Below are positions 10,933 through 14,599 of a stretch of 22,265 nucleotides of DNA, piece by piece (position 1 is the first letter of the stretch; the number at the start of each line of letters is the position of its first letter). Under the pieces are notes generated by a model. That model searched no databases. It was not told the DNA's origin and worked only from the letters and a program-made list of their open reading frames with translations. The stretch comes from a virus: positions 1-22,265 of IMG/VR virus record IMGVR_UViG_3300025652_000624; one strand, 5' to 3'. Made by a program: the position numbers and the translations under genes.

Positions 10933-11162
10933 TGACTAATTTAATTAACCCAAATTTAAAAACACATTGCAAACAATTGTTAGTAGATACAGACTGGACA
11001 GATTTACCAAACAATACTTTAACACCAGAATGTAAAGCAGCATTTCAAGAATGGAGAAAATTAATAAGAACAGTTTTATTACAAGATCCTCTACAAGATG
11101 TTTATTTTGATGATGGAAGTAATTTGCCACCTCAACCAATAGAAGAATGGAGTAATAGCTAA
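10932..11162 (+). CDS. Putative tail-fibre assembly chaperone-like protein (76 aa)
   Basis: This 76-residue protein reads NPNLKTHCKQLLVDTDWTDL, then PNNTLTPECKAAFQEWRKLI and NLPPQPIEEW. The pattern (R/K-x-x-LL-x-x-TDWT-x-LP-x-x-x-L-...-W-x-x-YR-x-x-LR-...-P-x-P) is that of phage tail-assembly chaperones that help fold or mount fibre proteins. It directly follows the large fibre gene and overlaps its stop by one base, with AGGAGAAG inside the end of the fibre gene as ribosome site. It is probably dedicated to that fibre. It could instead remain in the virion as a small fibre partner. Confidence 0.72.
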   Translation: MTNLINPNLKTHCKQLLVDTDWTDLPNNTLTPECKAAFQEWRKLIRTVLLQDPLQDVYFDDGSNLPPQPIEEWSNS

Positions 11163-11782
11163 TGGCTAGTATAAAATTAACAGGTGATTCAAGTGGAGTG
11201 ATCACAGTATCAGCTCCAGCAGCAGCAGGAACTAATACACTTACATTACCTGCAACGACAGGGACAATATTAGATACTAATAGTGCTTTAGTTTCTAGCA
11301 AATTAACTGGAGCTTTACCTGCTATTAGTGGTGCAGCTTTAACAGGGATTTCTAGTGGAGGTGTAACTCATTTAGGAACATTAACAACTACAAGTGGAAC
11401 AACCCAAGCTCTAGCTGCTCAAAATTTTAGTTTATATAATCAAATATGGATTGTTACTGATAATGTAAGTGCTGGTGGTGCTGCTGATTTTCAAGTAGGA
11501 CTTAATGGCGACGCAGTTATAAATGTAAGTGCTCAAATTCCAGCAGCTTCAGGTATGTGGGCATGGTTTAGAATTGATTTAAGAACTAATACTTTTCTTA
11601 ATACTTTTGCTTATCCAGCAGCAGCTACATCTGGTTCAGGCACATTTGATAATTTACCAACAACAGGTGGTTATTATAATTTAAGTACAAATTACAGAGC
11701 AGTAACAAGTGGTGCTATAACTATAGCAATGGAAGGACAAACTTTTGATGCTGGTTCAGCAGAAATATATGGAGTTAAATAA
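11162..11782 (+). CDS. Tail-fibre protein, first of two tandem paralogues (206 aa)
   Basis: The N-terminal module (residues 1-60) is of the type GDSSGVITVSAPAAAGTNTL plus TLPATTGTIL, a very common virion-attachment sequence in phage fibres. From about residue 65 the protein shares a C-terminal domain of roughly 140 residues with its neighbour at 11782: GVTHLGTLTTTSGTTQ at the start, a FRIDLRTN centre and TFDAGSAEIYGVK at the end. The domain is beta-rich and may be a receptor-binding head. The different N-termini suggest module shuffling. It is linked by TAATG overlaps on both sides. Confidence 0.82.
   Translation: MASIKLTGDSSGVITVSAPAAAGTNTLTLPATTGTILDTNSALVSSKLTGALPAISGAALTGISSGGVTHLGTLTTTSGTTQALAAQNFSLYNQIWIVTDNVSAGGAADFQVGLNGDAVINVSAQIPAASGMWAWFRIDLRTNTFLNTFAYPAAATSGSGTFDNLPTTGGYYNLSTNYRAVTSGAITIAMEGQTFDAGSAEIYGVK
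11355..11376 (+). repeat. 22-bp direct repeat at a fibre module junction, copy 1
   Basis: This segment is identical to 11951-11972 over 22 bases. It encodes GGVTHLG at the start of the C-terminal domain shared by the two tandem fibre paralogues. Upstream of it the two genes are unrelated, so it marks the boundary at which N-terminal modules were exchanged or the domain was duplicated. Confidence 0.7.
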
Positions 11783-12390
11783 TGGCAACAACAATAAATG
11801 GTTCTACAGGTGCTAGTCAAATACAAGACAATACTGTTAGCAATGCTAAAGTAGCAGATGATGCTATTGGTATAGCAGAGTTATCAGCAACAGGCACAGC
11901 ATCTAGTTCTACATTTTTAAGAGGTGATAATGCTTGGGCAACACCAAGTGGTGGAGGTGTAACTCATTTAGGCACAATGACTACAACATCAGGTACAACT
12001 CAAACAATAACAGGATTAGATTTTACTGACTTAAATTTCTTAATTTTTGTTGTGGCACAAGTTAGTCATTCAGATACAGGTGGAAGTAGAAAATTACAAA
12101 TTGGTATAGCAGGTAATGCAGATTTCGCAGTAGGCGACCCAGTAGCAAATGGTAATTGTTCTATAGGACAATTGATATTTGATTTAAGGTCAAATATAGG
12201 TCATTTTCCACAATCACCAGGTAACACTCCAATTACATCAGGTTCTGATTTTGTGGGTGGTGGTACAGGACATTTACGATATAACATAGGAACAAATTTA
12301 AGGTCATCTTCTAGCACATCTGTTAGCTGTTCTTGGGAATCATCAGCTACATTTGATAATGGAAAAATAGAAGTTTATGGATGTAAATAA
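11782..12390 (+). CDS. Tail-fibre protein, second of two tandem paralogues (202 aa)
   Basis: The N-terminus MATTINGSTGASQIQDNTVS is followed by IAELSATGTASSSTFLRGDN and AWATP (to about residue 55), again a standard phage fibre shaft module but unlike that of the preceding paralogue. From about residue 57 the domain shared with the 11162 gene follows: GGGVTHLGTMTTTSGTTQ, LIFDLRSN and TFDNGKIEVYGCK. Both end in the sequence E-(I/V)-YG-x-K. The shared domain is diverged through its middle, as expected if each copy has been selected for a different ligand. The start MATTIN repeats that of the large fibre at 9262. Confidence 0.82.
   Translation: MATTINGSTGASQIQDNTVSNAKVADDAIGIAELSATGTASSSTFLRGDNAWATPSGGGVTHLGTMTTTSGTTQTITGLDFTDLNFLIFVVAQVSHSDTGGSRKLQIGIAGNADFAVGDPVANGNCSIGQLIFDLRSNIGHFPQSPGNTPITSGSDFVGGGTGHLRYNIGTNLRSSSSTSVSCSWESSATFDNGKIEVYGCK
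11951..11972 (+). repeat. 22-bp direct repeat at a fibre module junction, copy 2
   Basis: This is an exact copy of 11355-11376, 596 bases away and in the same reading context (GGVTHLG). Recombination between the copies would delete one paralogue's N-terminus cleanly and fuse the other's shaft to the second tip domain. Confidence 0.7.
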
Positions 12391-12667: not shown

Positions 12668-13213
12668 ATGTTTGGTATAAGTACATATTCAGAAGTACCA
12701 TTCAGCTCGTTAGCAAGTTCTACATTTAGTGGAATTGCAGCAATTAATGGAACTGCAACTGTAACTGTACTGACAGCAGGACAATTTGTTTATGGAACTG
12801 GAAGTGTAAATGGTACAGCTACTTTATCAGTTATAACTACTGGTCAGATTGTAGAGGGAAATGCTGGAATAAATGGAACAGCTACTTTAGCTGTAATAAC
12901 ATCAGGTCAAATAGTATTAGGTACTGGAGCAATAGTAGGAACAGGCACAGTAGTTGCTTTATCTGCTGGACAGTTTGTTTATGGAACAGGCTCTATATCT
13001 GGAACTGGTACATTACAAGGAATAGGTGGTTTTACAGTATCAGCACAGGGAAGTATTATTGGTTCTGCAACTGTAACTGCAAGTAGCACAGTTACTTGGT
13101 CAGGTAATGCAGCAATATCAGCAACAGGAACAGTAGTCGTAGATGGACATATTCAAGGTAATAATTGGACAGTAGTACCTGTAACTTCAAACACATGGAA
13201 TAGGATAGCGTAA
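12668..13213 (+). CDS. Repeat-containing fibre protein built of 21-residue beta repeats (181 aa)
   Basis: After an N-terminal cap (MFGISTYSEVPFSSLASS), residues 38-160 consist of about six repeats of 21 residues, each of the form GQFVYGTGSVNGTATLSVIT. They begin at Gly38, 59, 80, 101, 121 and 142; the fourth is one residue short. An incomplete unit precedes them (AAINGTATVTVLTA). Such regular V/I/G/T repeats suggest a beta-helix or stacked-hairpin fibre shaft. The end NNWTVVPVTSNTWNRIA resembles the C-terminal WTxxxxxSNTWxxI segment of similar marine phage proteins that I recall. A GGAT ribosome site precedes the start, overlapping the end of the previous gene. No enzyme domain is seen. Confidence 0.8.
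   Translation: MFGISTYSEVPFSSLASSTFSGIAAINGTATVTVLTAGQFVYGTGSVNGTATLSVITTGQIVEGNAGINGTATLAVITSGQIVLGTGAIVGTGTVVALSAGQFVYGTGSISGTGTLQGIGGFTVSAQGSIIGSATVTASSTVTWSGNAAISATGTVVVDGHIQGNNWTVVPVTSNTWNRIA
12779..13147 (+). repeat. Tandem 63-bp coding repeats in a fibre gene
   Basis: About six in-frame units of 63 bases (one of 60) encode the 21-residue beta repeats. The first and fourth units begin with nearly identical 23-base segments (12779-12801 and 12968-12990, two differences) exactly 189 bases apart. The repeats could change number by slippage or recombination and so alter shaft length. Confidence 0.7.
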
Positions 13214-13216
13214 ATT

Positions 13217-13690
13217 ATGAGCAGAGATAAAATATCAGAATGGTCAGCAACAGCAGGTTCTAATACTGATGTAGGTGGAATTAATATTAATGAGGGTTGC
13301 CCTCCAGCTACGATCAATAATGCTATTAGAGAAATAATGGCTCAAGTTAAAGATTTTTCTACAGGTTATGATAATGATAATTTTGTAGTCGGTGGAAATT
13401 TAACAGTAGATGGTACAACAACTTTAACAGGAGTTCCTACTGGACCAACAGCAGTTGCTGGAACAAACACAACTCAATTAGCTACTACAGCTTTTGTTCA
13501 AACAAAAGTAGGTACTGTAGGCACAATGGCAGCTCAAAGTTCTGGTGCAGTTAATATTACTGGTGGCACTATTGCTGGTACAACTATAAATTCAATTACT
13601 GTAGGAAGTAATGGTAGTGGAACAAAAACTGTTTCTGCATCTAATCCTACTGGTGGTTCTGATGGTGATATTTGGTATAAGGTAGACTAA
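13217..13690 (+). CDS. Tail-fibre/appendage protein, INEGCPPATINNAIREIMAQ family (157 aa)
   Basis: The N-terminus ISEWSATAGSNTDVGGININ followed by EGCPPATINNAIREIMAQVK (27-46) is a module I recall from a great many phage fibres, especially marine ones, where it links fibres to the tail. Then come VGGNLTVDGTTTLTG and GPTAVAGTNTTQLATTAFVQ (about 76-95), a typical fibre shaft/coil segment. The C-terminus GGSDGDIWYKVD is of the type found where a fibre is joined to the next polypeptide. It may form a complex with the poly-glycine protein that follows directly (TAAATG). Confidence 0.82.
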   Translation: MSRDKISEWSATAGSNTDVGGININEGCPPATINNAIREIMAQVKDFSTGYDNDNFVVGGNLTVDGTTTLTGVPTGPTAVAGTNTTQLATTAFVQTKVGTVGTMAAQSSGAVNITGGTIAGTTINSITVGSNGSGTKTVSASNPTGGSDGDIWYKVD

Positions 13691-14599
13691 ATGACTATCT
13701 ATGTTAATGATGGTGCAAACAAAGAAGTTAGACAAGTGTTTGTTAAAACTGGTGGTGTATGGAAATCAGCTAATGAAGTATATGTAAAACATTCTGGTTC
13801 TTGGGAATTAGTGCATGGTGTTACTTATGTTACATTAACAGGTGATTCTGATGGTTTAATAAAAAACTTTAATTTAGCTACTCATTTAGGAGTTACTTCA
13901 CCAGCAATTTTTTCTATCACAGTAGCAGCAGCTACAAACTTTGTTTCAACTAGCAACATAGTACCAGCATTTGATGTTGGTTCATTACCTGTTGGAAGTT
14001 CAGTATTACTTTCAATTCCAAGTGATTCTAGTATTACTGGTAGGGGTGGTAATGGTGGATATGGTTCTGATAGTGAAGGTGGAACAGGATTATCTGGAGA
14101 TTTTGGTGGCACAGGATTATACACAAGATTCCCAATATCATTAACCAATAATGGAATAATTGGTGGTGGTGGTGGAGGAGGTGGGGGTGGTGGTGGTCGT
14201 AGAGTTTATAACCCTGCTGGAAATGGTGGTGGTGGTGCAGGTGGTTATCACGAAGAACAAAATTCAGACACAATAGATACTACTAGACCTCCAGGTGGAA
14301 CAAATACAGGTTTATCACCAGGTAATAACAGATTAGTACCAGCAGGTTTTGGTGGAATAGGAGCTGGTCCAAGAACAGATGGTAGCACTTCTCCAGCAGC
14401 AGCAGATGGAACTAAAACAACAGGTGGAGCAGGTAGCTGTGATGTCTTTGGTGGAAGATGTGGTGGAGCTGGTGGAAATTTAGGCAATGTTGGTACTAGC
14501 AGTAATAATGCAGGTGGAGCAGCAGGTAATGCTATAGATGGACATTCCTATATAACTTATGTTACATCAGGAACAATATCAGGAGGGCAAGTAAACTAA
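13691..14599 (+). CDS. Poly-glycine, adhesin-like tip protein (302 aa)
   Basis: Residues 13-42 hold two short repeats, VRQVFVKTGGVWKSA and NEVYVKHSGSWELV, probably the attachment part. Residues 45-115 are beta-rich. From 117 on the protein is dominated by glycine: 12 consecutive Gly at 158-169, NGGGGAGG at 178-185, and FGGIGAG, GGRCGGAGG and NNAGGAAGN in the last third. The end GNAIDGHSYITYVTSGTISG closely resembles the end of T-even gp38-type adhesins, whose poly-glycine helices pack in a sandwich and bear receptor-binding loops. Variable loops such as 186-212 lie between the glycine runs. It is the best candidate for the receptor-binding tip. The stop overlaps the next start, with AGGAGG nearby. 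Confidence 0.8.
   Translation: MTIYVNDGANKEVRQVFVKTGGVWKSANEVYVKHSGSWELVHGVTYVTLTGDSDGLIKNFNLATHLGVTSPAIFSITVAAATNFVSTSNIVPAFDVGSLPVGSSVLLSIPSDSSITGRGGNGGYGSDSEGGTGLSGDFGGTGLYTRFPISLTNNGIIGGGGGGGGGGGGRRVYNPAGNGGGGAGGYHEEQNSDTIDTTRPPGGTNTGLSPGNNRLVPAGFGGIGAGPRTDGSTSPAAADGTKTTGGAGSCDVFGGRCGGAGGNLGNVGTSSNNAGGAAGNAIDGHSYITYVTSGTISGGQVN

Follow-up and report, generated by a model that had tools for sequence, protein, structure and literature searches.

The window, i.e., the whole stretch of DNA analyzed here, is 22,265 bases long and represents a viral contig. An open reading frame (ORF) at positions 13691-14599 encodes a glycine-rich protein and directly follows a fibre gene. The features of the two genes are as follows.

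13217-13690, plus strand: fibre (carrier) gene, 157 aa, with an N-terminal anchor followed by fibre-like repeats
13643-13687, plus strand: putative C-terminal docking tail of the fibre, NPTGGSDGDIWYKVD
13691-14599, plus strand: polyglycine adhesin ORF, 302 aa, ATG start; gp38-type head on a three-repeat plug
13691-13825, plus strand: putative plug (docking) domain, aa 1-45; three 14-aa repeats, predicted to form three beta-hairpins
13826-14038, plus strand: first part of the predicted beta-helix core, aa 46-116; aligns with S16 gp38
14039-14116, plus strand: first Gly-rich extension, aa 117-142; GRGGNGG, a loop, then GGTG
14162-14197, plus strand: G12 run, aa 158-169, 12 consecutive Gly
14162-14542, plus strand: second Gly-rich extension, aa 158-284; Gly runs at 0.10-0.66 bits, loops at 0.82-1.73 bits
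14246-14347, plus strand: longest variable loop, aa 186-219; entropy 1.44 bits, with length changes
14543-14596, plus strand: C-terminal strands predicted to close the beta-helix, aa 285-302; entropy 0.43 bits; align with the S16 gp38 C-terminus

Genes for the terminase, portal and capsid proteins are located upstream of the adhesin ORF, a virion structural protein (phrog_3287) is encoded directly downstream, and a DNA-ejection-like protein and a holin further downstream. The portal protein shares 75% identity with its counterpart in Methylophilales phage Venkman. This phage was filed as a siphovirus, yet its tail looked short under the electron microscope, although the authors caution that tail loss is possible (PMC8163748). 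The first-pass annotation had placed the ORF in a podovirus-like late region. The late-region context holds, and the label ‘podovirus-like’ is reasonable but not proven, given the Venkman-like portal, the short tail of Venkman and the terminase, portal, capsid and DNA-ejection-like genes. Elsewhere in the window, two proteins of the tail region that resemble each other (206 and 202 aa) are encoded in tandem at 11162-12390 and both carry GGVTHLGT.TTTSGTTQ; a 221-aa protein (610-1275) without a PHROG match has repeated beta-like segments ending in Phe and resembles an outer-membrane barrel; and a protein composed of GTGSVNGTATLSVITTGQIV units (12668-13213), the counterpart of Venkman gp51, is encoded immediately before the fibre gene.

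Glycine accounts for 72 residues (24%) of the adhesin. The 12 consecutive Gly, several further Gly runs and GNAIDGHSYIT...GTISGG end listed in the first-pass annotation are all present: besides G12, there are fifteen runs of at least 2 Gly each between aa 21 and 299, and the protein ends in NAIDGHSYITYVTSGTISGGQVN. At the position of G12, 17/17 compared sequences carry at least 9 Gly in a row. Codon slippage is not the origin of this run, because its codons are a mix of GGT, GGA, GGG and GGC and differ among relatives while Gly is retained.

The ORF had been proposed from the sequence to encode a T-even gp38-like adhesin. For the head, sequence profiles and the predicted fold confirm homology to the receptor-binding portion of the T-even protein; the attachment domain is other than Gp38_N. 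The Pfam GP38 model (PF05268) matches the window protein at 25.9 bits (cut-off 25), as the sole match among Pfam families at E 0.1, and matches 22/22 family members, the best at 1.9e-13. At the same threshold, the protein matched neither the chaperone family profile (T4 gp38 / Tfa) nor Gly_rich_2 (PF21722). Furthermore, aa 16-301 of the window protein match phrog_2056 (E 1.4e-12), the family to which S16 gp38 itself belongs (2.7e-91). Comparison of the family profile with six gp38 proteins using hhalign gave 97.6% (E 3e-12), and aa 41-157 alone, ending before the long Gly run, gave 94.6% (E 6.5e-8). Composition was considered as the source of the match and ruled out by Gly-fixed shuffles: the unshuffled protein reached 28.8 bits with an HMM of T-even gp38, 300 such shuffles had a mean of -25 (sd 6) and a maximum of -2.8 bits, and the reversed protein scored -35.6 bits. 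Because the shuffled and reversed sequences score far lower, the likeness to gp38 goes beyond composition and Gly placement. A phmmer search of the PDB with the window protein returned no match, whereas profile and fold searches did, and tblastn against the phage collection yielded N-terminal matches only, the Gly-rich stretches being masked by the low-complexity filter. Relatives were searched with the non-polyglycine part of the alignment; the full alignment drew on Gly patterns.

The full-length, template-free AF2 model is of moderate confidence (pLDDT 73.5, pTM 0.71). In VIA comparisons, this model matched S16 gp38 (6F45_D) at Z 22.1 over 230 residues with an rmsd of 4.8 Å, and PP01 gp38 (9V85) at Z 21.1, with 2.5 Å over 203 residues; after the two gp38 structures, the next match had Z 6.0. 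Both structures were presumably released after the training date of the AF2 weights used, so the fold match should not be recall. Thus, the comparison with the S16 structure that the first-pass annotation had proposed supports its assignment, the modeled head being a beta-helix plus polyglycine extensions, as in T-even gp38. In the first extension, the Gly runs are near-invariant and the loop at aa 124-138 is variable. Residues 190-215, within the longest variable loop, have pLDDT below 50, and this loop (aa 186-219) is a candidate receptor contact.

The Gly-rich motifs are present and conserved in the window family. As anticipated in the first-pass annotation, variation is concentrated in the loops between the Gly runs: among the 17 compared sequences, entropy is 0-0.66 bits in the Gly motifs and 0.82-1.73 bits in the segments between them. 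Comparison of the window with a close relative, L008, at the DNA level revealed an island of divergence. The fibre gene is 99% identical and some 3 kb downstream are 94-100% identical, as are both flanks (94-100%, mostly 97-100%), whereas identity drops to 64-87% at 13768-14518, the receptor-binding part. This pattern is as would be expected of a receptor-binding tip. Furthermore, L008 and L041 have the head in common (91-95% in the Gly-rich parts) but not the plug (71%), and the window and L004 are also more alike in the head than in the plug, so that heads and plugs are shuffled among relatives. Variation consists largely of swapped blocks, not only of point changes in loops. At 14438-14461 (aa 250-257), the window protein has a two-Cys loop, CDVFGGRC, which alternates among relatives with a Cys-free version, DDLRGLGTRI, resembling two alleles.

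The first-pass annotation missed the attachment of the adhesin, namely the plug and the tail of the fibre. AF2 modeling of the plug alone from 25 natural sequences yielded three hairpins at a pLDDT of 92.1. The repeats are clearest in the relative L019 (ISVNDSGTWKSASE / IHIKDGGVWKRANE / VHIKEGGVWKLAFG). Successive Trp residues in plug-type N-termini are most commonly spaced by 14, although repeat 1 of the window protein is without Trp (GANK). PHROG matches of the plug are to proteins of unknown function or to a minor tail protein. Homology of the plug to Gp38_N (PF21721) was considered and rejected: the window protein has no Pfam match to Gp38_N, whereas S16 gp38 consists of Gp38_N and GP38, and profile-profile comparison of the two domains (hhalign) gave 0.1%. 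Neither a Pfam model nor a sequence relative in the PDB was found for the plug, and its predicted structure matched no PDB entry at Z of at least 2; this absence of a PDB match does not show that the fold is new.

The fibre protein encoded immediately upstream has PHROG matches to tail fibres, and its first 56 residues are 58.9% identical to Venkman gp50. The gap between the fibre and adhesin genes is 0 nt in the window, and the same order, with a gap of 0-3 nt, is found in 16/16 relatives. The fibre ends in the tail PTGGSDGDIWYKVD; the pattern GG..DGD[IV]WYK occurs at 13652-13683, with 0 occurrences expected by chance. Fibres of podo- and T4-like phages that are otherwise unrelated end in this tail, which takes up their last 13-15 residues.

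Association of the tail with the plug was assessed by searches in both directions, covering partly redundant loci (80 forward and 56 reverse, with 49 and 29 distinct N-termini, respectively, and 25 distinct tails). The forward search used a DNA pattern for the tail alone across viral contigs. The tail was located 0-2 residues before the stop codon in 80/80 loci, and in ~77/80 a gene opening with three repeats came next, at a distance of -4 to +9 nt; in the remainder, the next gene was an unrelated small gene (1) or encoded another protein (1), or no next ORF lay on the available stretch (1). The reverse search used a DNA pattern for the repeat alone, the plug alignment being too divergent, and found the repeat near the N-terminus in all 56 loci. 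The tail was encoded in the adjacent gene in 51/56 loci and one gene away in 2/56, a count that is not blind, since the tail expression was widened after misses and its narrower first form gave 35/56. The remaining loci had divergent tails, as judged by eye (2), or lay too near the contig end (1). Across the loci of this reverse search, the tail was found in 53 of 1039 reading frames, the number expected if it is confined to these sites. Among named phages, the pair is present in P-HM1, P-HM2, MED4-213, Paso, RHEph27, RHph_Y68, CHOED and HTVC023P, and in weaker form in S-SKS1 and Moabite. The pairing is not universal, because the tail is missing from Burkholderia phage FLC6, which does have the plug, and in Microbacterium phages the repeats are C-terminal. 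One of the latter is Doobus (L199), in which gp21, a minor tail protein, ends in three repeats. In L157 and L189, and possibly L105, a gene for a small Cys-rich protein (CxxC motifs, ~78-100 aa) lies between the fibre and adhesin genes.

The heads borne by the plug differ: they match GP38 (L077, L116) or Gly_rich_2 (L061, L062, L066, L076 and HTVC023P), or are unnamed. Across loci L061-L133 and L143-L197, many of them from uncultured phages, the three-repeat plug carries unrelated heads, often Gly_rich_2. An adhesin of the same kind, encoded after a fibre gene, is also found in Autographiviridae (Paso, RHEph27), T4-like cyanophages (P-HM1, P-HM2, MED4-213) and others. Hence, the suggestion in the first-pass annotation that the receptor-binding tip is common to unrelated phage types is borne out as to sharing, but only for the gp38-like head, which is joined to another attachment domain. 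Such sharing is not new: Paso_047 is already annotated in GenBank as similar to S16 gp38, based on HHPred.

A single-chain adhesin tip such as gp38 has to be mounted on a three-fold tail fibre; therefore, phages of this type all face a 3:1 mismatch. We consider it likely that the protein encoded by the ORF is a gp38-type adhesin that forms the tip of a short tail appendage and binds the receptor there, with the plug capping a trimeric fibre in a 3:1 arrangement. The N-terminus of the fibre protein encoded at 13217-13690 would anchor the fibre to the short tail. At the distal end, the three hairpins of the plug, one per 14-residue repeat, would be laid out with pseudo-three-fold symmetry, and each hairpin would receive the C-terminal tail (GGSDGDIWYKV) of one of the three fibre chains, so that a single monomeric adhesin would be mounted per fibre trimer. 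The head (aa 46-302) would be a gp38-type beta-helix carrying the two Gly-rich extensions, predicted to pack as a polyglycine II sandwich and to present the variable loops to the host surface.

Alternatively, the protein could be a gp38-type adhesin for which tail and plug are not the joint, the two genes merely traveling together and the plug binding another tail protein. Although the FLC6 plug without a tail and the C-terminal repeats of Microbacterium phages fit this explanation, we regard it as rather unlikely: the same tail ends otherwise unrelated podo- and T4-like fibres (75% identity over 24 residues for P-HM2), and one plug carries different heads, GP38 or Gly_rich_2, and therefore it is the interface that is conserved, not the cargo. 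It is far less probable that the protein helps the fibre to assemble, as the chaperones T4 gp38 and Tfa do, and is absent from the virion. Its gene does occupy a chaperone-like position directly downstream of the fibre gene, but in fold and in sequence the protein matches the gp38 adhesins of S16 and PP01, not the chaperone kind, and a receptor binder would be expected to have variable loops and an island of divergence. That the protein is a low-complexity decoration or structural protein resembling gp38 in composition only is hardly credible and, judging from the sequence comparisons, already refuted: Gly-rich proteins are common in phages and heads on related plugs match Gly_rich_2, but the shuffles fall far below the real protein, and the gp38 match persists without the long Gly run and extends to the fold (Z 22).

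The adhesin reading, with the plug as its joint to the fibre, has a wider version that we favor with some reserve, namely that the fibre tail (PSGGxDGDxWYKV-stop) and the three-hairpin plug constitute a general, undescribed coupling of one monomeric adhesin to a trimeric fibre, which would let unrelated podo-, sipho- and myoviruses swap heads (gp38-type, Gly_rich_2-type and others) while the fibre is unchanged. Sequence alone points to a solution of the 3:1 problem that T-even phages do not use and that is common among phages of sea and soil. Should the tail and the plug bind each other, the pair would allow receptor-binding genes to be predicted among those currently annotated as hypothetical, and would account for the movement of heads between phage lineages. 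The window protein is also a candidate receptor-binding protein for relatives of the OM43 methylotroph phages, for which we found no receptor study in the literature searched. No Pfam model or solved structure was found for the tail-plug pair, and a literature search covering mainly open-access journal papers returned no paper on the pair or on polyglycine adhesins in marine short-tailed phages.

Among known systems, the adhesin represents a variant of an established type, because the Paso protein is already annotated as gp38-like and Pam3 gp24 has a related domain; other database entries named Gp38 also exist outside T-evens. Pam3 gp24 is a tail fibre with a Gly-rich receptor domain of packed Gly-rich motifs, but it is a homotrimeric fibre with a TNF-like domain, located below the Gly-rich domain, and a separate chaperone, gp25 (PMC9608196). 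No TNF-like domain is among the structure matches listed for the window model, and the best match has a beta-helix in that position. Venkman gp50 (MT375522) shares the N-terminal fibre anchor and the gene position but has a collar-type tip fused in one protein, with no plug, tail or polyglycine adhesin, which agrees with the prediction of the tail-plug reading. Close parallels are CPT_Paso_047 of the Rhizobium podovirus Paso and its counterpart in RHEph27, in which a three-repeat plug and a Gly-rich head directly follow a fibre ending in PSGGVDGD[TV]WYK; these differ in a diverged head with shorter Gly runs and no Pfam GP38 match. PHM2_034/PHM2_035 of P-HM2 likewise combine the fibre tail, at the identity given above, with three repeats and a Gly-rich head, but in a T4-like cyanophage, with a very long fibre and a weak GP38 match (19.4 bits). 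Finally, gp38 of S16 (6F45) and PP01 (9V85) has the same beta-helix with two Gly-rich extensions and variable loops, the same gene position directly after the fibre gene and, likewise, three attachment elements, in its case three Trp. It differs in that these belong to three short helices in Gp38_N, instead of three predicted hairpins, and in that its carrier is the long gp37 of a contractile-tailed phage, instead of a 157-aa fibre with a GDIWYKV tail; the window protein also has one long extra loop (aa 186-219). In S16, the gp37 trimer has three pockets, each occupied by one of the three Trp of the attachment domain of gp38 (PMC6851490). On the simplest reading, three repeats would match a three-fold fibre just as three Trp match gp37, but through another domain.
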